A DNA stretch of 64,000 nucleotides from Armatimonadetes bacterium DC (GTDB lineage: Bacteria > Armatimonadota > Fimbriimonadia > Fimbriimonadales > GBS-DC): positions 1 through 64,000 of the forward strand of contig LDYB01000019.1 in the NCBI GenBank assembly GCA_001442985.1. The letters are read 5' to 3'. Numbering within the stretch: the stretch's first letter is position 1; each line of letters begins with the position of its first letter. The position numbers were made by a program, and so were the translations under genes. Positions 7,249 through 21,290 of this stretch are shown piece after piece. Under the pieces are notes generated by a model that was not told where the DNA came from, did not search any database, and saw nothing but the letters and a program-made list of their open reading frames with translations.

Positions 7249-7415
7249 GACGACCGCTCCCGCACCAGCGCCCATACGGTTAAGACCAGCAGGAGCGCGA
7301 ACAGGGCAGCGCCCGCTTTGTAGAGAGGGCTATCGGGCGTCAGCGTAACATCTGTGCCCAGCCAGCCCCCGTAGAGGGCTAAGCCAATCCAGCCGAGTGC
7401 GACGACGGTGCGCAT
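7245..7415 (-). CDS. Small two-helix membrane protein, 56 aa
   Basis: The gene starts inside the last 37 bases of aroKB (ATG 7415) and stops at 7245 with a TGA that overlaps the ATG of the following hydrolase. It encodes a first hydrophobic helix (MRTVVALGWIGLALYGGWLG), a short polar turn (TDVTLTPDSPLYKAG) and a second helix (LFALLLVLTVWAL) ending RERSS. Tight overlaps with both neighbours on the same strand and the clean two-helix pattern support translation. It may be a membrane microprotein; no function is suggested by sequence. Confidence 0.55.
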   Translation of the reverse strand: MRTVVALGWIGLALYGGWLGTDVTLTPDSPLYKAGAALFALLLVLTVWALVRERSS

Positions 7416-9022
7416 CGTCGGAGTGCCTCCAGAATCGCGTCAGCAGGGATATTCGGCACGAGTTCCGCCTCTCCCACCGCTTTCAGCAGAACGATATGGA
7501 ATTGCGCGCCGACGCGCTTTTTGTCGGCACGCATTGCTTCCAGCAGCGTTTCGGGAGCCACAGGGGGCAGGGCAACGGGCAGCCCCGCCTGCTGGAGGGT
7601 ATGCTTTAACTCGGCGAGGGTCTCCTCAGGAGTAATCCCCATCAGCACCCCAATCTGGGCTTCGGCGACCATGCCGGCGGCAATTGCCTCACCGTGCAGC
7701 CAGTCGCGATAGTTCAGGGCGCGTTCAATCGCGTGTCCAACCGTGTGCCCGAAGTTCAGCAGCGCCCGCAGCCCTTGTGTGTCGCGCTCGTCAGAGGAGA
7801 CCAGCTCGCTTTTAATCTGCACACAGCGTGCAATCGGCAGAAGCCAGCCGTCGGGCGTTTTACGCACACGGCGCGGCGTGAGCCAGCCTCCCGCCACCAT
7901 CGCTTTCAGCCGAAGCCATAGCCCCGAATGGAGCGCGATTCCGTACTTCAGCATCTCGGCAAAGCCGTTGCGCCAGTGTCGGGCAGGAAGCGTGGTCAGG
8001 ATTTCGGGGTCTATAAACACCGCTTGAGGCTGATAAAACGCGCCCACCAGATTCTTGCCTTCGGGCAAATCCACGCCCACCTTACCCCCAACGCTGGAAT
8101 CCACCTGCGCCAGCAGCGTGGTGGGAACCTGAAAGAACGGTATCCCGCGCATGTAGGTCGCCGCGACGAATCCGCCCATATCGCCCAGCACGCCGCCGCC
8201 CACCACAACCAGCCCGCTGTGGCGGTCTACCCCGCGCTGTGTCATCTCGCGATGAATCCGTTCCACCATGCGCAGGGTTTTGAATCGCTCGCCAGAGGGA
8301 ACATAGAGCGTGTGGGTGGGAATGCCCTGCTGATTCAGGGCGCTCGCAATTGGCTCCGCCCACTGCTGGAGAGGGGGATGGGAGAGAATCACAACTTGAG
8401 AGGGCTTTCCGAACTCGGCGAGGCGCTGGGGAAGGGCATGACGCAAACCACTCGCGAGGAACACGGTGTAAGCATGAGGTTGTCCTTCCAGCACGGGGAT
8501 AGTCAAGGGTGCATCGGGCGTGGGCTGGATAAGGCGAGCCAGCGGCTCGACAACCTGTTCAGGGGTTTTGCCGTCGGTGGGCAAAATCCAGTCCGCCTGC
8601 TGATAGAGTGCTTCACGCTGGGCGGCAATCGCCTGCAGTTTTTCAGCGGGGTCGGGCTGGAGCAGGGGGCGTGTGGTAGCGTCAGGAATCCGTGAAAGCA
8701 GGGTCTCTACAGAAGCTTTGAGATAAACAATCCAGCCGTGCTGGCGCATGACCTGACGGTTCGCTTCGCTCAGAATCGCGCCGCCACCGCAGGCAATCAC
8801 CGAAGGCGTGGGGTGGGCGGCAAGTTGCTTCAACAGATGCGCTTCCATCTCCCGAAATCGGGCTTCGCCTTCTTCGGCGAAAATCTGGGGAATGGTTTTA
8901 TGGGTTGTCTGCTCCACCACCAGATCCAGGTCAAAAAAAGGTCGCCCCAGCCTGCGGGCAAGCAGTGCGCCGACCGTGCTCTTGCCCGCGCCCATATTGC
9001 CCACCAGAAACAGATGCCTCAT
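7379..9022 (-). CDS. aroKB: Bifunctional shikimate kinase / 3-dehydroquinate synthase fusion
   Basis: This is 547 aa. Residues 1-170 are shikimate kinase: P-loop GNMGAGKST, DLDLVVE, FREME and CGGGA. Residues about 185-535 are 3-dehydroquinate synthase: NAD-binding GGGVLGDMGGF, substrate region VDSSVGGKVGVD, and metal ligands in GFAEMLKYGI, NFGHTVGHAIE and WLHGEAIAAGM. The two activities are steps 2 and 5 of the cytoplasmic shikimate pathway to chorismate. The fusion keeps all catalytic motifs. A terminator separates it from pilQ upstream, so it has its own promoter. Confidence 0.95.
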   Translation of the reverse strand: MRHLFLVGNMGAGKSTVGALLARRLGRPFFDLDLVVEQTTHKTIPQIFAEEGEARFREMEAHLLKQLAAHPTPSVIACGGGAILSEANRQVMRQHGWIVYLKASVETLLSRIPDATTRPLLQPDPAEKLQAIAAQREALYQQADWILPTDGKTPEQVVEPLARLIQPTPDAPLTIPVLEGQPHAYTVFLASGLRHALPQRLAEFGKPSQVVILSHPPLQQWAEPIASALNQQGIPTHTLYVPSGERFKTLRMVERIHREMTQRGVDRHSGLVVVGGGVLGDMGGFVAATYMRGIPFFQVPTTLLAQVDSSVGGKVGVDLPEGKNLVGAFYQPQAVFIDPEILTTLPARHWRNGFAEMLKYGIALHSGLWLRLKAMVAGGWLTPRRVRKTPDGWLLPIARCVQIKSELVSSDERDTQGLRALLNFGHTVGHAIERALNYRDWLHGEAIAAGMVAEAQIGVLMGITPEETLAELKHTLQQAGLPVALPPVAPETLLEAMRADKKRVGAQFHIVLLKAVGEAELVPNIPADAILEALRRCAPSSHSAGLA

Positions 9023-9089: not shown

Positions 9090-10709
9090 TCAGGGCGCCA
9101 GCCCTGTGCCTGTGGAATCGTCCTCAATCACGGTCGCCGTCACGAAGATAAGCAGTTCGCTCTCCACCAGCGAACGGTCTTTCTTGCGGAAGAATTGCCC
9201 AATTAAGGGCAGGTCCGCCAGAATGGGGATGCGCACCTGCTGGGAGTCTTCCTGACGGGCGACCAGACCGCCCAGTACGATAGTCTCACCGTTTTTCACA
9301 CGGCGCACGGTCAGCACGGTCTGGAAGGTAGAGCGTGGCAGGTCTTGAGTCCCCACGCGCACGCGCTCGGTGGTGGTGAGCGTCGGGATGAGGCTCAGGG
9401 TGATGGTGCCATCGGCGTTCACGCGCGGAACCACGCTCAGGAACGAAGGAATTAGAATCGGGAACGGCTGCGAGAAGGTGGTTGGCTGACCCTGCGCGTT
9501 GAACACGACGAACTCCTGCAGAATCCAGTCCTGCACGGTGATGCTGACCGAGGCGGGCATGTTGTTCTGCGTGGTGATGATGGGAGCGTTAATCACGCGC
9601 CCGCGCCCGCGGGTCAGCTGGGAGCGCATGTTCGCCACGAGGTTGCCCGAAGCGTAGTTGACGAACACAGGCGCCGCCCGGTCTGCCAGCCCCGAAGCGC
9701 CCGCGGTCAGGTTCACCCGCGCCAGATTCCAGTCAATACCGAACTTGTCGATTTCGTTGCGGCTGACGGTCACGAACTCGGCGCGAATCAGCACCTGTTT
9801 CGGGGCGATATCCAGGAAGCGCAGGATCTGGCGGATATATTCAATCGCTTCGGGGCGCCCACGCACGATGATGGAGTTATCGATATCGTTGGCGACGATA
9901 CCGTCCAGTCCTTCGTGCTGGAAGATGCTCACCGCGCCGCCTGCGCCTGCTCCCGGCTGCCCGCCGCCACCGGGCTGTCCGCCGAAGCCGCCCGGCTGTC
10001 CCCCGAAACCGCCCGGTTGTCCGAAGCCGCCGAAGCCGCCGCGACCGCGCCCGCCGATGCCCTGTCCTTCGCCGCTATCCATCGGAGTGGCAGGGTTTAC
10101 AGGCGTTGCGGTGGGCACAGGCGCGCTGTTGTACGGCACGACGGTGCCGTTCTCGATGCGCAGCGGCACGCTGGGCTGGACGCCCGGCATCGTCGTCTGC
10201 AGTTGATGGCGTGCGGTGGTTTCCAGAAACTCACGCAGTTCGGCGAACGGGTCGGGCGTCATCATCTCGTTCTGGATGATGCGCACGATGTCCGACGCGC
10301 GGGAATACTTCAGCGGGATGCGCTCCACCACCACAACTGGTGGCGCAGGCGGCTGGGGGGCAGGCGCCGCCTGTGGGGCAGGCTTCTCTTCTGCAGGGCG
10401 CTGCGGACCGATGATGTAGACCCCTTTTTCTTTCCGATACGAGGCGCCTGCCGCCTGACAAATCAGACCGAGCGCTTCCTCAAAAGGGCGCTTCTCTATC
10501 TTGACGAAGCCGACACGCTTGTAGGGCTGATCGGTTGGCTCGAAGACGACCTCTGCATTCACCTGCTGGGCAATCATTTTGACCGCCGTAATCAGGTCAG
10601 CGTCCATCAGGTGAATGGTAACCTGATAGTCGTCGCTCGCCCAGACCATCGTCGCCAGTGTCAGTGTGGTCAGCGAGAAAATCAGTTTGCGTCCGATTCC
10701 TTTTCTCAT
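9090..10709 (-). CDS. pilQ: Type IV pilus secretin PilQ
   Basis: This is 539 aa from ATG 10709, preceded by GGAGGAACACACTG. A signal peptide (about 1-24) precedes a secretin/TonB N-terminal (STN) domain at about 28-100 (VTIHLMDADLITAVKMIAQQ). A short N1-like segment follows (PLKYSRASDIVRIIQNEM), then a Gly/Gln/Pro-rich linker at about 210-260 with GGFGGQPGG repeats. The C-terminal secretin beta-barrel at about 270-530 contains VLIRAEFVTVSRNEIDKFGI, the VPRVNADGTITLSLIPT gate region and GETIVLGGL. It should form the outer-membrane channel for the pilus. It is the last gene of pilM-N-O-P-STN-pilQ. Confidence 0.92.
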   Translation of the reverse strand: MRKGIGRKLIFSLTTLTLATMVWASDDYQVTIHLMDADLITAVKMIAQQVNAEVVFEPTDQPYKRVGFVKIEKRPFEEALGLICQAAGASYRKEKGVYIIGPQRPAEEKPAPQAAPAPQPPAPPVVVVERIPLKYSRASDIVRIIQNEMMTPDPFAELREFLETTARHQLQTTMPGVQPSVPLRIENGTVVPYNSAPVPTATPVNPATPMDSGEGQGIGGRGRGGFGGFGQPGGFGGQPGGFGGQPGGGGQPGAGAGGAVSIFQHEGLDGIVANDIDNSIIVRGRPEAIEYIRQILRFLDIAPKQVLIRAEFVTVSRNEIDKFGIDWNLARVNLTAGASGLADRAAPVFVNYASGNLVANMRSQLTRGRGRVINAPIITTQNNMPASVSITVQDWILQEFVVFNAQGQPTTFSQPFPILIPSFLSVVPRVNADGTITLSLIPTLTTTERVRVGTQDLPRSTFQTVLTVRRVKNGETIVLGGLVARQEDSQQVRIPILADLPLIGQFFRKKDRSLVESELLIFVTATVIEDDSTGTGLAP

Positions 10710-10792
10710 CAGTGTGTTCCTCCTCCGTGATACCAGAAATCTTAAAGGGAGGGGGTTGAGTGCCAACCCCCTTCAAAAGCGGGAGCAGGGGA

Positions 10793-11533
10793 TTAGCGCC
10801 CGAAGCCGCCTCCGAAGCCACCGCCTCCGAAGCCGCCACCGAGTCCGCCACCACCGAAGCCACCGCCGCGGAAGCCGCCGCCGAAGCCGCCAAAGCCGCC
10901 ACCGCCGAAGCCGCCGAAGCCGCCGTAGCCCCCGAAGCCACCAAAGCCGCCTCCGAGACCGCCGAATCCACCGAAGCCGCCGAAGCCGCCGTAGCCACCG
11001 AAGCCGCCAAAGCCACCAAAACCACCAAAGCCGCCGAAACCACCAAAGCCACCGAAGCCGCCCATCATCGACATTTCGTACTGGGCGTAGTTAATCTGGG
11101 TGGCGCCCAGCAGGGCAGCAATCAGGGCTGGATTGGCGTAGTTCAGCTGGATTTTCTCGGGGATATTGGTCGTTTGCGGCTGCTCCTCAGGTGTCTCGCC
11201 GCCCGTGGTGATAGGCGCCTCTTCAGGCTGGCGCACGGTAATGTAGTAGACCCCGCTCTCCACGCGGTAGGTCAGATTCTGCTGGCGCAGAATCGCGTCC
11301 AGCGCAACCGAGAAGGGCACATCGGTCAGCGAGACCGTGACCGTACCCTGCACATTCGGGTCCAGCGAGTAGTTCGCGCCGACGCTATCGAACAGCTGCT
11401 TCAGCACATAGCGGATGTCCGCCTGATCGTATTTGACCGTGACGCGCCGCTGGGAGATATCGTCTTGGGCGCTCGCCACGGCAAGGCTCAACAGAAGCCC
11501 GCAGACTATCAGCCATATCAGTTTCTTTACCAT
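10793..11533 (-). CDS. STN-domain protein with a long Gly-Phe repeat tail
   Basis: This is 246 aa with signal peptide 1-22 and GGAGGGAAAACGACG before the ATG. Residues 28-100 are an STN-like domain (VTVKYDQADIRYVLKQLFDS, VTVSLTDVPFSVALDAILRQ), homologous to the first domain of the PilQ encoded just downstream. A second short motif (IQLNYANPALIAALLGATQI) resembles a secretin N1 entry. The last 90 residues are almost only Gly-Gly-Phe repeats. There is no secretin barrel, so it cannot form a channel alone; it may be an accessory ring or plug of PilQ. I know no standard name. Confidence 0.8.
   Translation of the reverse strand: MVKKLIWLIVCGLLLSLAVASAQDDISQRRVTVKYDQADIRYVLKQLFDSVGANYSLDPNVQGTVTVSLTDVPFSVALDAILRQQNLTYRVESGVYYITVRQPEEAPITTGGETPEEQPQTTNIPEKIQLNYANPALIAALLGATQINYAQYEMSMMGGFGGFGGFGGFGGFGGFGGFGGYGGFGGFGGFGGLGGGFGGFGGYGGFGGFGGGGFGGFGGGFRGGGFGGGGLGGGFGGGGFGGGFGR
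10797..11064 (-). repeat. Tandem GGF/GGFGG-coding repeat
   Basis: About 270 bp of degenerate 9- to 15-bp units (CCGAAGCCG/CCACCGAAG on the plus strand) encode more than 25 GGF or GGY/GGL triplets in the tail of the STN-domain protein. Such repeats are prone to length change by slippage. Confidence 0.85.
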
Positions 11534-11581
11534 CGTCGTTTTCCCTCCACAGAATTATACGCTCAGGTACAGAAGGCGTTT

Positions 11582-12319
11582 CTAAATTCCGACACCTCCG
11601 CGTCCGCGCGGTCCGCCTCCGCCGGGTGCGCCGACGCCGGGTGCGCCCGGAGCGGTGGGCATCCCAGGAGCTCCCGGAGCGCTGGGCGCTCCGGGACCGA
11701 TTCCGCCGCGTCCACCGCCGGTGCCGCCGCCAGCGGGTGGCTCATAGGGCACGCGCACCTCGCGTGGGTTGCCTTTGGAACGGCGCAGGATGACGCCATC
11801 GGGGGTAATCGCAGCCACCCGGAATTCGCCGACCATATCCCCTGGCTGCACAATCATCGGGATTGGCTCGCCTTCTTGCTCGATAATCGCCGACACGGTG
11901 GAGCCGATGACAATTCCTGCCACACGGCGGCGCGGTTGCGGTTCGTATGGCTCAGGCAACTCCACTTTCGGCGGCGGGGTTGGCGATGCCAGCACAAAGT
12001 ACAGGTTCGGATTGAACGCATCGCCCTGCATCGCCTCTTCCTCTTCTGGCAGCGGCGCAAACGGGTCTTTGCGTGGCTTGAAAGCCACCCGTGCCGCGGT
12101 GTCGGGTGCAGGAGCGGATGGGGGTGGCGTGAACCCACCTGTGGGAGTGGTGGGTGGGGTGGGCGTTATCCCGTCGCTCGGGCCCGGTTGACTCACCACG
12201 GGAGGTTGCGCTGGGGGTGTTTCACCACCGCCGCCGGTCAGCATGAAAATTGCCACGACGGCTATCACCACCAGCAGAACGACCGCTATCGCTATCGCCA
12301 TCTGCGTTTCTTTCTTCAT
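11582..12319 (-). CDS. pilP: PilP-like pilus assembly protein
   Basis: This is 245 aa. One N-terminal membrane helix (residues 7-29) is followed by a Pro-rich linker, then the PilP-type motif FKPRKDPFAPL near residue 80 and a small beta domain (RRVAGIVIGSTVSAIIEQEG, IPMIVQPGDMVGEFRVAAI) at about 130-185 resembling the GspC/PilP homology region. The last 50 residues are Gly/Pro/Ala-rich (GAPSAPGAPGMPTAPGAPG). Canonical PilP is a lipoprotein; here a transmembrane anchor replaces the lipobox. It is expected to bridge PilNO and the secretin. The assignment rests on position and the KDPF motif. Confidence 0.72.
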   Translation of the reverse strand: MKKETQMAIAIAVVLLVVIAVVAIFMLTGGGGETPPAQPPVVSQPGPSDGITPTPPTTPTGGFTPPPSAPAPDTAARVAFKPRKDPFAPLPEEEEAMQGDAFNPNLYFVLASPTPPPKVELPEPYEPQPRRRVAGIVIGSTVSAIIEQEGEPIPMIVQPGDMVGEFRVAAITPDGVILRRSKGNPREVRVPYEPPAGGGTGGGRGGIGPGAPSAPGAPGMPTAPGAPGVGAPGGGGPRGRGGVGI

Positions 12320-12362
12320 CGTTCCTCACTTCCTTCTTCCACGCGGTTGCCGTTTTTCCTGC

Positions 12363-13115
12363 TTAAGGTCCGCTGGCGCCCGGACCGCCGCCAAAGCCCA
12401 TCGGGGCGCCCGGCATGGGTCCTGGCGGACCGCCGCCGAAACCGCCCGGCATGCCCATGCCGCCACCACCAGCGCCAGGCGTTGAGGGTACAGGCGGTCC
12501 TGCCTTATCCCCGTTGCGTGGGAACACAATCACCGTCATCGTGTAAGTACCGATCAGGTTCGGACTCATGCCCTGAATGCTCAGCCCGTCAACCAGCACC
12601 ACCAGATTCGGCACCTCGTTCCATTTTCGGACATGGTTGAGCAATCCTTCAAACGACGAGGCGCGCACCTGCACGGTTCCAATCGGGAACACCAGGGCGA
12701 TGTTATTGATGGCGTTCGGGTCGTTAGGCGGACCGGGCAGCGCGACGCCATAAAGGCGCTGTACCCCTGTCTTCTCGGGCCAGGCTTCCAGTTTCTTGCC
12801 GATTTCGCGCACCATGTCCTGCCAGCCCATCCACGCTTTCATGCGGTCGCTTAAGTCGATGGTGTTTTTGGGCATCTTGGTGCGGTCAATCACGGCGAGC
12901 CGCTGCTCGGCTTCTTTGACCTTCTGTTCGGCGCGCGCCACCAGCTGTTGCGCGCGGGGGATCATCGCGACCTTTTGCTCCAGCTGGCGGATATTCTCTT
13001 CGTGATAGGCGATATTCTGGAGCGTGGGGCGGATGCCGAGCAGAAAGATAGCTGCCGCGACATCAATGGTAAGCACCAGCCCGATTGCCACTTTCGCAAA
13101 CATTGACAGGTTCAT
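12363..13115 (-). CDS. pilO: PilO-like pilus alignment protein
   Basis: This is 250 aa from ATG 13115. The ATG at 13121 is only 1 nt from the GGAGG, whereas 13115 has a 7-nt spacing. One membrane helix (about 6-26) is followed by a coiled coil (residues 33-75, rich in EENIRQLEQKVAMIPRAQQL-type heptads) and a ferredoxin-like periplasmic domain (VRASSFEGLLNHVRKWNEVP, VDGLSIQGM). The final 45 residues are Gly/Pro/Met-rich. It lies between pilN and pilP as in the canonical pilMNOPQ order. It should pair with PilN in the inner-membrane alignment complex. Confidence 0.82.
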   Translation of the reverse strand: MNLSMFAKVAIGLVLTIDVAAAIFLLGIRPTLQNIAYHEENIRQLEQKVAMIPRAQQLVARAEQKVKEAEQRLAVIDRTKMPKNTIDLSDRMKAWMGWQDMVREIGKKLEAWPEKTGVQRLYGVALPGPPNDPNAINNIALVFPIGTVQVRASSFEGLLNHVRKWNEVPNLVVLVDGLSIQGMSPNLIGTYTMTVIVFPRNGDKAGPPVPSTPGAGGGGMGMPGGFGGGPPGPMPGAPMGFGGGPGASGP

Positions 13116-13127
13116 GCCCATACCTCC

Positions 13128-13961
13128 TTAGATCCCGATTCCGCGTCCGCCGAGTTGTGGGGGCGGTGCGCCGCCGCCGAAACCGCCTGGCATCCCGAAG
13201 CCGCCTCCCGTGCCGCCGCCGATGTTGAGGACGCTCGGCAGGGTGGGGGGAGCCATTGGCTCTTTAAGGGTAGCAACGACCTGGAAATTCATCAAGCCTG
13301 CCGGCGACCCTGCACTCTGGCCTGTGCCTCCGGTGCCGCCTGTGGGTGCCCCCAGGCCGAAGCCGCCGCCCGGTGGACCGCCGCCCGCCGCGGTTAAGCC
13401 TCCTGCCATGGGACCTGCTGGAGCGCCCCCTCCGAAAGCGCCAAGCCCTCCCGCTTGCCCACCGGTCGCGCCTGCCGGGTAGCCCGGCATTTGGGTGGTC
13501 AGGCTCACGGCGGTGAAGAGGGGACACCGATACATCGTTTGCAGGTAAAGCCCTATCTCGCGAATCCCTTTGGCGTAGGCGCTAATCTGAAGCTGGTTCC
13601 CCTGCTGAATCTGTAAGGATTCGTAACGCACTCGCGGCGAGGTATATTGGTTTAGTTTGCTATAGAATTCAGGGTACTTCAGATTATGCTGTTGAATGAT
13701 GCGCACGCCTTCCGATTTGGCAAGCGTAAGCGCCGCGGCGTTGATGAGCTGTTCGGCTTGCGAGTTGAGCGCATCCACCTGGCCCGCCTGCGCCTCCAGC
13801 TCGGCTTTACGGGCTTGCAGCTCGCCTAATTTCGCGCGTGCGCTCACCAGCCAGAACGCCATCGCCGCGTTCACCAGGAAAAACAGCACCACCAGCAGCG
13901 CGATAATCTGTTTGTTGACCTTCCGCTGGCGTACATAATCGGGTACAAGGTTCAGTTTCAT
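13128..13961 (-). CDS. pilN: PilN-like pilus assembly protein
   Basis: This is 277 aa. It begins MKLNLVPDYVRQRK, the conserved cytoplasmic PilN tail that binds PilM. A membrane helix (residues 19-42) and a coiled coil (about 43-75) follow, then a periplasmic domain (VRYESLQIQQGNQLQISAYA, IREIGLYLQTMYRCPLFTAV). About 90 C-terminal residues are Gly/Pro/Ala-rich, interrupted by one folded-looking strand (MNFQVVATLKEP). GAGGAGG precedes the start. It overlaps no neighbour but lies 16 nt after pilM. Confidence 0.85.
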   Translation of the reverse strand: MKLNLVPDYVRQRKVNKQIIALLVVLFFLVNAAMAFWLVSARAKLGELQARKAELEAQAGQVDALNSQAEQLINAAALTLAKSEGVRIIQQHNLKYPEFYSKLNQYTSPRVRYESLQIQQGNQLQISAYAKGIREIGLYLQTMYRCPLFTAVSLTTQMPGYPAGATGGQAGGLGAFGGGAPAGPMAGGLTAAGGGPPGGGFGLGAPTGGTGGTGQSAGSPAGLMNFQVVATLKEPMAPPTLPSVLNIGGGTGGGFGMPGGFGGGAPPPQLGGRGIGI

Positions 13962-13977
13962 CGTCGCTTTTGCCTCC

Positions 13978-15291
13978 TCAGAAGCTGGCGTGAAGCCCCA
14001 TCCCTATCGCCACCGCCAGTAAGTGGGCGTTATTGGCGACATATTCCGGACCGTGGCGCTTCACCTGCAGGGTGAGACCCCGCACAGGGTTCGCCACGGC
14101 AACGGGGATTCCTATCGAGTTGGCGAGAAACTGATCCAGATTCGGGATCACAGCCCCGCCGCCGCAGAGCAGAATCTGGGTGATTTCGATATCACCGTGT
14201 CGGCTGCGGAAGTATTCCACCGAACGCCGCACCTCGCTGACCAGCTCTTCCAGAAGCGGGTAGATGGCGCGGAAGACTTCAATTTTGCGGCTGTCGGCGG
14301 GCGATTGCGTCGGCAGGCTGGGTTCCGCGCTGGGCGGTTCAGGTTCTGCAAAAGGCGAAGGCGGCGCCTCGGCTTCTGGGGCAGGTGGCTCCTCGCCCAG
14401 TCCGGGCACGCTGAACGGCGAAGGCGCGGCAGGCGAGTACGGCGTCCCCGGCGTGTAGGTCGGCTCGGAACCAAAACCAGGTGTATAGAAGCCTCCCATC
14501 GGAGCGCCCGGCACGCCGAACGGCGAACCTCCCACGGGAATCTGATCCATCAGCACCTCTGCCAGTTGCACTTTGAGCTGTTCGGCTTCACTCTCGGAGA
14601 TCATGAGGCGCTCGGCAATCGCACGGGTTAGCATATCGCCCCCCGTGGGCAGGATACGCGGGAAGCTCAGCAAGCCGCGGTCGAAGATGTCGATGGAGGT
14701 CGCGCTCGCGCCCAGATTAATCACCGCCACTGCTTTGGTTTGCATGTCAGGCTGGGTCAGCAGCAGGCTCCGTCCCAGTGCCAGCGGCTCCACATCGATG
14801 GCATAAGGCTCCAGCCCCACCTTGTCCGCAACATCCACAAGACCGTTCACGGCATCCTGCTGGGCAACCGCCAGGATGACCTCCATATTGGGGTCGTTCG
14901 GGTCTTCGTTGGGGCGATGGATGACTTCGTAGGCAGACTGGACGCGCGTGTCGGCAAAGGGGATGTTGCGCTGAATCTCCCAGTCCATGTGCTGACGCAG
15001 CTCGGCAGGGTTCATGCGCGGCACTTCCAGAATCCGCACCACCACGGCGTTTTGCCCTGCCAGTGCGAACGCGCCATGTTTGGCGGAAATTCCCGTGTCG
15101 GCGAGCAGTCTTTTCAGGGTTGCGGCGACCGCGTTTTTGTCGATGATGCCTGCCGAGTCGACGGCGCCCTCAGGCGTGGGCGCAATCCCCACATTGGTCA
15201 ACACAGGGGGGCGCCCCGTCCGCACTTCCGCCACTTTGATGAAGCGGGTGCCGATGTCAATCCCGACTACGCTACCCGGTTGCTTTGCCAT
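13978..15291 (-). CDS. pilM: PilM actin-like ATPase
   Basis: This is 437 aa. Actin/FtsA-fold phosphate motifs are visible: VGIDIGTRFIKVAEV at the N-terminus, VINLGASATSIDIFD near residue 195 and LCGGGAVIPNLDQFLA near 385. Between about 245 and 330 a Pro/Gly/Glu-rich insertion (FYTPGFGSEPTYTPGTPYSP) separates subdomains and is absent from canonical PilM, which is about 350 aa. It is the cytoplasmic ring component that binds the PilN tail. It is the first gene of the pilus operon; AGGAG lies 9 nt before the ATG. Confidence 0.92.
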   Translation of the reverse strand: MAKQPGSVVGIDIGTRFIKVAEVRTGRPPVLTNVGIAPTPEGAVDSAGIIDKNAVAATLKRLLADTGISAKHGAFALAGQNAVVVRILEVPRMNPAELRQHMDWEIQRNIPFADTRVQSAYEVIHRPNEDPNDPNMEVILAVAQQDAVNGLVDVADKVGLEPYAIDVEPLALGRSLLLTQPDMQTKAVAVINLGASATSIDIFDRGLLSFPRILPTGGDMLTRAIAERLMISESEAEQLKVQLAEVLMDQIPVGGSPFGVPGAPMGGFYTPGFGSEPTYTPGTPYSPAAPSPFSVPGLGEEPPAPEAEAPPSPFAEPEPPSAEPSLPTQSPADSRKIEVFRAIYPLLEELVSEVRRSVEYFRSRHGDIEITQILLCGGGAVIPNLDQFLANSIGIPVAVANPVRGLTLQVKRHGPEYVANNAHLLAVAIGMGLHASF

Positions 15292-18755: not shown

Positions 18756-21290
18756 ATGCAAAGGCGAAAAGAAGCGCAGCGAGCTGCTGCTTGCTGGCTT
18801 GGGGTTCTGAGTCTGGTCAGCCTGTCTTCGGCGCAATTTGTGTGGATTCAGCACGCGCCCACTTTCACCGACGACCTGTATGGGGTGGCATTTCCGACAC
18901 CGACGCACGGCTTTGTGGTCGGCACACGCCTCCTGCTGAAGGAGACGCGGGATGGCGGGCAGAGCTGGCGCTCTCGCAGTGGCGTCGGTGCCACCACACC
19001 CAGTGTAGACCCCTTCTACACCGTTCTCTTTCATGACTCACAAAATGGGTGGATCACCGGGAATAACAACTACGCGTTTCGAACTACAGACGAAGGCGCC
19101 ACATGGAGCCGGATGACCACCGTACCCGCAGGGTCGTGGAGGCATATCGATTTTGTGTCGCCCACTATGGGTTTTATTGGTGCGAACGGCGCCTGCGCCT
19201 TCACCAGCGATGGGGGTCAAAACTGGCAGCTGCGCTCGGGCTATCCGGACTGCCCGATTATGTACGGCATGGATTTTCGGGATGCAAATCTGGGGCTGGT
19301 GGCGGGCGACCACCTTTCGCTGGGCACGGGCATCTACCGCACAACCGATGGCGGACGCACATGGAGTCGACGACTGACGGGCATTTTCAACGATGTGGTC
19401 TTTATGGACGCGAACACTGCGCTGGCAGCCGCCAATACCGGGGCGATTTATCGCTCCACCGACGCAGGCAACAGCTGGACGCAGATCGCTCCCGCTCGCC
19501 CCAATGGGTTGGGAGATCTGGAACGGGTGGACAGCACTACCGTGGTGGGCGTGTCCGTGTTGGGCGATCTCTGGCGCAGCGCGGATGGCGGATTCACATG
19601 GAACAAGGTGGGTGAAGACCTCGGCAGCTTGCCTGGCGTATGGAATGTTCATTTCCGCGACACGCAGAACGGCTGGGTGGTGGGTCCTAAAGGGATTCTG
19701 CTTGCCTCTTCTGATGGCGGTCTCACATGGCGCGTGGCAAGCAACGGCATCGTAGACAATATTACCGACATTAAGATGGTCTCCCGCGCTTTCGGTTATG
19801 CCGTCACGCGCAACGCCTATGTGCTGCGTACACGCGATGGGGGAGTGCGCTGGGACCTGCGCCACCTGAAGGTTACAGGTAATACCTTCGACCACCCGGA
19901 GGGCTTGCAGGCGATCGATGCGGTCGATGCCCAGTTCGCGGTTGTAGCGGGCATTGGTGGGATTGTGTTCAAGACGGAAGATGGCGGCGAGACCTGGCAG
20001 CCGATTGGCTATCCCACGCTACCAGGGCGTTTCGACATTTACGATGTGCGCTTCACCAGTCGCCAGACAGGCTGGGTCGTGGGGCGGGATAACGATCTGG
20101 GACACTACCGCAACATTTATCGCACGACGGATGGTGGTCTCGCCTGGCAACTGGTTGTGCCCGTACAGGCTGCGGTTCAATACGACGCTATTGATTTCGT
20201 GGGCAACAGCGGCTGGGTGGTGGGTCCCAGCGCCTTCCTGCTGCGCACGACGGACAGGGGCAATACATGGCAGCAGGTAAGCCTGCCTTACGGCAATGTA
20301 ACGAATCTGCAGTTCACCGATGTGGGCTTTGCAAATGAGCAGGTGGGCTGGATGATTGGCACGGTAGGCTATGTATTGCGCTCCACCAACGGCGGTCAGA
20401 GCTGGGTGCGCCAGAGCCTCAGTACCAGTGAGGACCTCATAGCGCTTTATGTGGTGAGCGCGGACGAGGCGTGGATTGCAGGCGCACTTGGCAGTGTATT
20501 CCACACCACCGACGGCGGTCAGAGCTGGCTCCGCGAGCCGACGGGCTACCCCTCCTCGCTGGGGCTGAGCGCATTGCACGGCACACCCGACGGGCATTTG
20601 GTCGGGGGTGGCTATGCGGGCTTTCTGGTGGTGCGCCATCCGGGTGAGCGGGCGACGGCGACCAGCTTCTCGGTGCCGTTCGGGCGAATGGCAGGCGGCA
20701 ATTTGACCGCCCTGCAGAACAGTGATGATACCTACCTGCTGCTGGAGAGCCGAGCGCCCACCCAGTCAGGCAATCCGTATGTGCAGGTAGTGGTTGAGGG
20801 CATGGCGGACTCGCGCCCCTGGGAGCAGCTCACCTTCCGCTTTGAAGGTAGGTCCAACGCCTCGCCCTTGACCGGAGTCAAGCAGGTGCTGGAACTGTTC
20901 AACTTCACGACCAACCAGTGGGAGGTTCGAGAGGAGCGATTGCCTGATCAATCCAACGATGGGGTATGCGAGACCTTCGTTCAGGATCCCTCGCCCTACA
21001 TTCAGGCGGGCACGGGGCGGATGCGCGCCCGCATGAGCTGGTACAAGGTAGGCGACCTCCTTGCAGACCCGTGGCATGTGTGGGTAGACTATGTGCAGTG
21101 GAGCCTGCTTCCGGCCGCGATTACGGGCGATGTGAACGGCGACGGCTGCGTGGATGATGCCGACCTGCTGACAGTGCTGTTCGCGTTCGGGCAGTCGGGT
21201 TCGGGCTTGCCCGGAGATGTAAACGGTGATGGTGTGGTGGACGACGCCGATTTGCTCACGGTGTTGTTCAACTTTGGGCAGGGATGTTAG
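18756..21290 (+). CDS. Secreted YCF48/BNR-type beta-propeller protein with dockerin-like C-terminus
   Basis: This is 844 aa from ATG 18756, which gives a proper signal peptide (ends LSSAQ) and has GGGGTGA ahead; ATGs at 18705 and 18720 are alternatives. About fourteen repeats of the form 'TTDGGxxWxR...F.D.xxGWVVG' (for example KETRDGGQSWRSR, RTTDGGRTWSRR) cover residues 25-640, typical of YCF48/Hcf136-like and BNR propellers. A beta domain follows, then two copies of GDVNGDGxVDDADLLTVLF at the C-terminus, resembling dockerin type I calcium loops. It is probably displayed on the cell surface. The ligand is unknown. Confidence 0.85.
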   Translation: MQRRKEAQRAAACWLGVLSLVSLSSAQFVWIQHAPTFTDDLYGVAFPTPTHGFVVGTRLLLKETRDGGQSWRSRSGVGATTPSVDPFYTVLFHDSQNGWITGNNNYAFRTTDEGATWSRMTTVPAGSWRHIDFVSPTMGFIGANGACAFTSDGGQNWQLRSGYPDCPIMYGMDFRDANLGLVAGDHLSLGTGIYRTTDGGRTWSRRLTGIFNDVVFMDANTALAAANTGAIYRSTDAGNSWTQIAPARPNGLGDLERVDSTTVVGVSVLGDLWRSADGGFTWNKVGEDLGSLPGVWNVHFRDTQNGWVVGPKGILLASSDGGLTWRVASNGIVDNITDIKMVSRAFGYAVTRNAYVLRTRDGGVRWDLRHLKVTGNTFDHPEGLQAIDAVDAQFAVVAGIGGIVFKTEDGGETWQPIGYPTLPGRFDIYDVRFTSRQTGWVVGRDNDLGHYRNIYRTTDGGLAWQLVVPVQAAVQYDAIDFVGNSGWVVGPSAFLLRTTDRGNTWQQVSLPYGNVTNLQFTDVGFANEQVGWMIGTVGYVLRSTNGGQSWVRQSLSTSEDLIALYVVSADEAWIAGALGSVFHTTDGGQSWLREPTGYPSSLGLSALHGTPDGHLVGGGYAGFLVVRHPGERATATSFSVPFGRMAGGNLTALQNSDDTYLLLESRAPTQSGNPYVQVVVEGMADSRPWEQLTFRFEGRSNASPLTGVKQVLELFNFTTNQWEVREERLPDQSNDGVCETFVQDPSPYIQAGTGRMRARMSWYKVGDLLADPWHVWVDYVQWSLLPAAITGDVNGDGCVDDADLLTVLFAFGQSGSGLPGDVNGDGVVDDADLLTVLFNFGQGC

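Follow-up and report, generated by a model that had tools for sequence, protein, structure and literature searches.

Gly-rich segments on five proteins of a type IV pilus-like operon of Armatimonadota

In order to understand why five proteins encoded by a single type IV pilus-like operon carry long Gly-rich segments, and whether these segments might act together, we analysed 64,000 nt (hereafter the window; contig LDYB01000019.1, positions 1 to 64,000) of Armatimonadetes bacterium DC, an Armatimonadota genome of 2.85 Mb whose closest named relative is HRbin15 (PilM 76 % identical). On the minus strand, from position 15291 down to 9090, lie pilM-pilN-pilO-pilP-STN-pilQ, followed by an aroK-aroB fusion. 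Judged from the sequence, the cell has several type IV pilus-like machines, and this operon would specify the alignment complex of one of them. An earlier sequence-only reading had placed six pilus-assembly genes and their low-complexity segments here, at coordinates that agree with ours (Table 1). As a tentative answer, to which we assign a probability of roughly 0.4, we propose that a cohesive, flexible Gly-rich matrix, the cohesion of which we infer, couples the inner-membrane platform to the secretin.

A protein was counted as bearing a tail if it contained a 40-residue stretch with Gly+Pro ≥ 50 %. A home-made gene caller, which may miss or mis-start genes, predicted 453 proteins from 494 kb, or 17 % of the genome; only five reached this value, and these were PilN, PilO, PilP, STN and PilQ of the operon (hypergeometric P = 3.9e-11 for five of five within six operon genes; residue shuffles reached it in 12 of 9060 cases). 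At Gly ≥ 35 % exactly the same five were retrieved, and at 40 % Gly+Pro there were ten, six of them operon genes, PilM included. An organism-wide Gly bias is thus ruled out, as is a wrong reading frame, given the homologous N-terminal domains and the same-frame segments that are alike in kind throughout the phylum. Nor are the tails a trait of any PilN, PilO, PilP or PilQ. The same genome encodes a canonical pilMNOPQ set on contig 23 (region L054), in which PilN and PilO score over their Pfam cut-offs, as well as a third pil/type II secretion system (T2SS)-like set on contig 19 (L275:7527-13591) with PilN/O/P-sized genes assigned by eye and position, a 445 aa secretin, pilB and pilC; no protein of either set reaches 50 % Gly+Pro. 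Likewise, tails were found in 3 of 75 canonical N/O/P/Q paralogues of the same order (the cQ of L238 and the cP of L240 and L250; 19 of 20 regions, L251 being left out), in keeping with the view of the sequence-only reading that canonical homologues lack them.

Close relatives had PilM in 58 of 61 genomes (the window's own genome counted), and a sample of 201 genomes from across the phylum had it in 191. We fetched 94 regions and called PilM in 88 (L051, L069, L070, L083, L120 and L153 being left out); tail counts omit genes cut at a region end and PilQ calls of < 450 aa. A tail was borne by 284 of the 358 complete Armatimonadota proteins of the five types (PilN 59/83, PilO 58/80, PilP 56/71, STN 57/62 and PilQ 54/62), and PilM reached the threshold in 2 of 87. 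The tail-bearing system spans PilM identities to the window of 32–77 %, and the comparison of pil operons that the sequence-only reading had proposed thus finds relatives keeping their tails, rather than lacking them, down to the lower end of that range. In a contig scan of 113 relatives, the best 80 of 141 stretches were labelled Armatimonadota or 'bacterium', the exceptions being L170 (Methanoregulaceae) and L195 (Alicyclobacillus), both apparently mislabelled. One lineage of machine, with tails on PilN, PilO, PilP, STN and PilQ, appears to have been kept throughout Armatimonadota. A literature look-up at record level, which included glycine-rich pili of Armatimonads, returned no report of such tails.

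The segments lie at the C-terminus in 96 % of PilO, 95 % of STN, 73 % of PilN and 67 % of PilP proteins across the phylum; internal are the N-terminal linker of PilP and the PilQ loop. They fall into two kinds. Tails of PilN, PilO and PilP are Gly/Pro/Ala chains (phylum means of ∼30 % Gly, 16 % Pro and 11–15 % Ala), whereas those of STN and PilQ combine Gly with hydrophobic residues, STN tails averaging 57 % Gly, ∼20 % Phe+Tyr+Met+Leu and 1.5 % Pro, and PilQ loops 39 % Gly with some Gln, Leu and Phe. Hydrophobic residues of the STN tails stand 3–5 residues apart in 63 % of 1168 gaps, and in 53 of 62 STN tails the last four residues include Arg or Lys, against an Arg+Lys background of 2.7 % in the tails. 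The claim of the sequence-only reading that all six proteins carry Gly/Pro segments was slightly too broad, because the PilM insertion of the window reaches only 40 % Gly+Pro and is a segment of a different type; for the remaining five it holds.

In order to ask whether the tails change together, we scored each protein by the highest Gly fraction of any 40 aa stretch in it, in the 64 operons where PilM was present and five or more labelled genes were complete, and calculated phylogenetically independent contrasts on the PilM tree, followed by partial contrasts controlling for regional guanine-plus-cytosine (GC) content and core Gly (15 tests). Five pairs covaried in the partial contrasts (PilN-PilO 0.56, PilN-PilP 0.41, PilN-PilQ 0.55, PilO-PilP 0.56 and PilO-PilQ 0.56; all P ≤ 1.3e-3), and all five survived the 15-test correction, the removal of four tail-poor loci and the use of ranks. 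The folded cores of the six N/O/P/Q pairs showed no covariation under the same contrasts; the core pairs that did covary were PilP-STN (0.36, P = 6.5e-3) and STN-PilQ (0.27, P = 0.045). As yeast two-hybrid contacts are described for PilN-PilO, PilO-PilP and PilP-PilQ of Myxococcus in the available text of PMC3724824, the covarying proteins would be neighbours in the machine. The tails of PilN, PilO, PilP and PilQ thus probably work as a set.

The STN protein resembles the N-terminus of PilQ. In an AlphaFold model of PilQ (33 sequences, mean predicted local distance difference test (pLDDT) 65.7), residues 173–263 are disordered between a helix (156–172) and a strand (268–274), separating the first and second halves of the N1 domain. 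In STN, the N0 domain is modelled with pLDDT ∼97, with values below 50 at 151–241. The whole folded part of STN aligns with the PilQ N-terminus by hhalign (E = 1.9e-35) and stops where the PilQ loop starts; as such, at the sequence level STN is a partial copy of the PilQ N-terminus, cut where the disordered loop begins. Furthermore, tblastn places STN on annotated PilQ at 31 % identity, and Foldseek matches it, as a stand-alone N0 domain, to the PilQ N0 of 4av2 (E = 3.2e-6). In one relative (L155:13052-13822), a further gene of STN type, likewise encoding a Gly-rich tail, was observed downstream of aroKB.

In the arrangement that we propose, the segments would meet where the PilN/PilO/PilP platform joins the N-terminal rings of the secretin, made of PilQ and an extra STN ring, and would stick weakly together there, with PilN, PilO and PilP giving Gly/Pro/Ala chains and STN and PilQ giving Gly with regularly spaced Phe/Tyr/Met/Leu stickers. 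The result would be a flexible, self-healing sleeve that keeps both halves coupled while the gap between them varies and retraction exerts force, with the PilM insertion standing apart from it as a docking loop in the cytoplasm. Since most tails sit at the C-terminus, they join no two folded domains and can act only by binding or bulk. We estimated the tail mass by hand for a machine assumed to contain six PilN/O pairs and, of PilP, STN and PilQ, 13 copies apiece. Of this stoichiometry, the 6-fold and 13-fold values come from the available text of PMC13039148 and the rest is assumed. The total, ∼5,700 tail residues, would take up most of the volume of a cylinder measuring 10 nm by 10 nm. With the cylinder filled to this extent, most tails would have to lie outside the path of the pilus, and for that reason we prefer a sleeve over spacers, neutral drift, a luminal plug or a ligand anchor.

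The main rival, which we regard as somewhat unlikely, is that the tails are plain elastic spacers, non-sticky flexible chains that bridge a periplasm of large or variable width, an idea proposed for PilW of Thermus. There, according to the available text of PMC13039148, the comparatively Gly/Pro-rich PilW bridges PilQ and PilNO, and its truncation shifts the inner-membrane density ∼7 nm towards PilQ, bringing the halves closer by that distance. The PilP N-terminal linker and the PilQ loop are indeed internal, and covariation would follow if the width of the periplasm varied; most tails, however, are C-terminal and tied to nothing, and the hydrophobic residues of STN are dense and regular, unlike an inert spacer. 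Decidedly less probable is neutral growth specific to this locus, whereby GC-rich codon tracts expand by slippage and are tolerated. Such growth is hard to reconcile with a composition kept phylum-wide, with neighbouring pilM and aroK genes that are not Gly-rich, with canonical paralogues in the same genomes that are largely tail-free, with the conserved ends of the STN tails and with a covariation that outlasts control for GC content and core Gly. Moreover, the 21 GGF triplets of STN are encoded by seven different 9-mers with synonymous codons mixed, and the Gly tracts are therefore not a pure DNA repeat. In its favour are the degenerate 9–42 bp arrays that Tandem Repeats Finder detects at the Gly tracts, the wide variation in tail sequence and length among relatives, and the few members that fall under the 50 % threshold.

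It is also conceivable, though very unlikely in our estimation, that PilQ loops and STN tails form a luminal plug, a gel like that of phenylalanine-glycine (FG) nucleoporins, which seals the secretin vestibule and admits the pilus. The position of the PilQ loop in N1, an extra N0 copy whose tail begins at the same place and the pairing of Gly with regular hydrophobic residues would all suit a plug. It would, however, leave the PilN, PilO and PilP tails unexplained; STN and PilQ tails do not covary; and the residues of the hand estimate, if all luminal, would leave the pilus no room. We see equally little chance that the tails bind a ligand, anchoring the machine to peptidoglycan, surface polysaccharide or a giant propeller protein, as the tails revealed no ligand-binding domain and their sequence itself is not conserved, even if a giant secreted protein is encoded directly upstream of pilM in many relatives and the ends of STN and PilP tails are Arg-rich. 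Finally, a bolder form of our own proposal, which we consider unlikely, is that a condensate-like mesh of Gly-rich tails from five proteins holds and seals the periplasmic core, with STN as the mesh-carrying ring subunit, much like the FG mesh of the nuclear pore.

Several observations weigh against the sleeve. The PilP-PilQ pair gave 0.30 (P = 0.029), which fails the 15-test correction (0.061 without the tail-poor loci), and in the main analysis STN, which has the most sticker-rich tail, covaried with none of PilN, PilO, PilP and PilQ; on ranks, PilO-STN reached −0.27 (P = 0.036). Before phylogenetic correction, STN matched PilN, PilO and PilP in the type of its stickers, Phe/Tyr or Met (rho 0.27–0.37), but this matching between tails vanished under phylogenetic contrasts. 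Within the order, just 17 of 36 members have a PilN that reaches 50 % Gly+Pro, and L125 and L134 keep the genes, yet no called protein of theirs reaches that value. In addition, the PilO and PilP labels rest mainly on gene position and weak matches. For PilN, PilO, PilP and PilQ, the covariation fits the suggestion of the sequence-only reading that the tails act together; it gives that suggestion no support for STN, nor for PilM, whose insertion lies in a different compartment, differs in composition and covaried with none of the other segments in the main analysis.

The sleeve bears on the question of what keeps a type IV pilus machine connected between inner and outer membrane when the gap is variable. 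In one machine, a whole phylum carries low-complexity and probably disordered chains on each periplasmic component, and sister machines in the same genomes that lack them offer a natural comparison. Multivalent disordered contacts have so far mostly been described for eukaryotic pores and cytoplasmic bodies; should the tails prove cohesive, this would be a bacterial envelope machine organized by such contacts.

The insertion of PilM differs in kind from the Gly tails and, by the known place of PilM, is cytoplasmic. Between conserved positions 240 and 347, all 64 PilMs of the Gly-rich system have 50–223 residues (median 105), compared with 25–27 in canonical PilMs (n = 19). The motif [NSD]PF occurs 96 times in these insertions, about tenfold more than in shuffles (9.3 ± 2.8), and is present in 42 of the 64 (8.6 members expected); in L114 an NPF-bearing unit is repeated about seven times. 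On this sequence pattern, the insertion looks like a candidate docking loop for a cytoplasmic partner.

In Pseudomonas, pilM-N-O-P-Q are followed by aroK-aroB. The present operon has the same order, and the same PilM and secretin domains, as type IVa PilMNOPQ systems (Pseudomonas, Myxococcus, Neisseria), from which it differs in its extra STN gene, its Gly tails on PilN, PilO, PilP, STN and PilQ, its PilM insertion and the divergence of PilN, PilO and PilP, which are too diverged for the Pfam cut-offs. Stand-alone N0 domains beside a secretin are also found in accessories such as BfpG, DotD and VirB7-like proteins, and the Foldseek matches of STN (9u5s_R, 3ady and 3ov5) include DotD and a BfpBG chain, chain R of 9u5s being taken as BfpG from the entry title; STN is set apart from them by aligning to the N-terminus of PilQ itself and by its terminal GGX tail. 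FG nucleoporins, GGX silk and loricrin-type proteins also have low-complexity Gly in which hydrophobic residues recur at regular intervals, although FG repeats are less dense than the stickers of STN. By composition, the closest precedent is PilW-PilQ of Thermus thermophilus, in which a flexible Gly/Pro-rich protein crosses a wide periplasm to link PilQ with PilMNO (PMC13039148, available text). Thermus has one such protein, whereas here there are five, with hydrophobic-sticker tails among them, and the Armatimonadota system looks like a distributed version of the PilW bridge.

Table 1. Genes and segments of the operon and other features (window positions unless a region is named)
Feature	Position	Strand	Description
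pilM	13978..15291	-	437 aa; actin-like cytoplasmic platform protein; TIGR01175 212 bits (cut-off 133), PF11104
PilM insertion	14299..14565	-	Residues 243-331, 89 aa; Pro/Ala/Ser/acidic, [NSD]PF motifs
pilN	13128..13961	-	277 aa; PF05137 15.7 bits, under cut-off 22.8; between pilM and pilO
PilN Gly/Pro/Ala region	13131..13514	-	Residues 150-277, 128 aa; flanks last beta strand, reaches C-terminus
pilO-position gene	12363..13121	-	252 aa; assigned by gene order and own profile across phylum
PilO C-terminal Gly/Pro tail	12366..12551	-	Residues 191-252, 62 aa
pilP/GspC-type gene	11582..12319	-	245 aa; transmembrane-anchored; GspC_delta 18.1 bits, below cut-off
PilP N-terminal Pro/Gly linker	12074..12259	-	Residues 21-82, 62 aa
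PilP C-terminal Gly/Pro/Arg tail	11585..11803	-	Residues 173-245, 73 aa
STN protein	10793..11533	-	246 aa; signal peptide, N0 domain, first part of N1; PF07660
STN GGF tail	10796..11101	-	Residues 145-246, 102 aa; 61 % Gly, 21 % Phe; ends GGFGR
pilQ-like secretin	9090..10709	-	539 aa; ATG at 10709; PF00263 96.9 bits (cut-off 27.5)
PilQ Gly-rich loop	9885..10127	-	Residues 195-275, 81 aa; within N1 (Secretin_N) domain
aroK-aroB fusion	7379..9022	-	Kept downstream neighbour of pilQ
Giant protein examples	L156:1619-7855, L157:882-7835, L179:894-7793
DADLL-type motif proteins	18840-21290, 37389-38852		Plus 16 others in own genome

The genes of the operon were identified with differing ease. PilN of the window begins with MKLNLVP, and the N-termini of 12 members resemble MKLNLVP or MLRINLLP, a type of motif that we take to bind PilM. 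Searches of Pfam and NCBIfam matched no PilO domain over cut-off in the pilO-position proteins, and PilP of the window has no Pfam match, that of order relative L063 scoring 21.5 bits with T2SSC (under the cut-off of 27). The start of PilP is of transmembrane type in the window's family, and a lipobox-like pattern was seen in 22 of 61 PilPs of the phylum set. The secretin has V. cholerae PilQ (6w6m) as its best Foldseek match and scores 140 with the PilQ-specific TIGR02515 (cut-off 284); an alternative TTG start at 10766 would lengthen it by 19 aa. T2SSE and T2SSF genes are present in the genome, none of them inside the operon. Downstream, 37 of 43 named loci have aroK/aroB no more than three genes away from pilQ; a fusion of the two is seen in the window and in near relatives L154–L156, with a fusion-sized gene also in L194, but most of the order has separate genes.

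Directly upstream of pilM, many relatives encode a secreted protein, 2100–2600 aa long in its complete copies, with Golvesin_C and PQQ-propeller matches, and a same-strand gene of at least 790 aa occupies this position in 40 of 63 loci with 3 kb of upstream sequence. The window's genome keeps its giant protein elsewhere (contig 20, L273:7994-14335); a 2207 aa window protein (39008-45631) was considered for this role and rejected, as it gave no match. By its domains and location, the giant protein is a candidate tip adhesin or substrate. Lastly, a DADLL-type motif, dockerin-like by eye, was seen within the last 60 aa of 18 of the 453 proteins.

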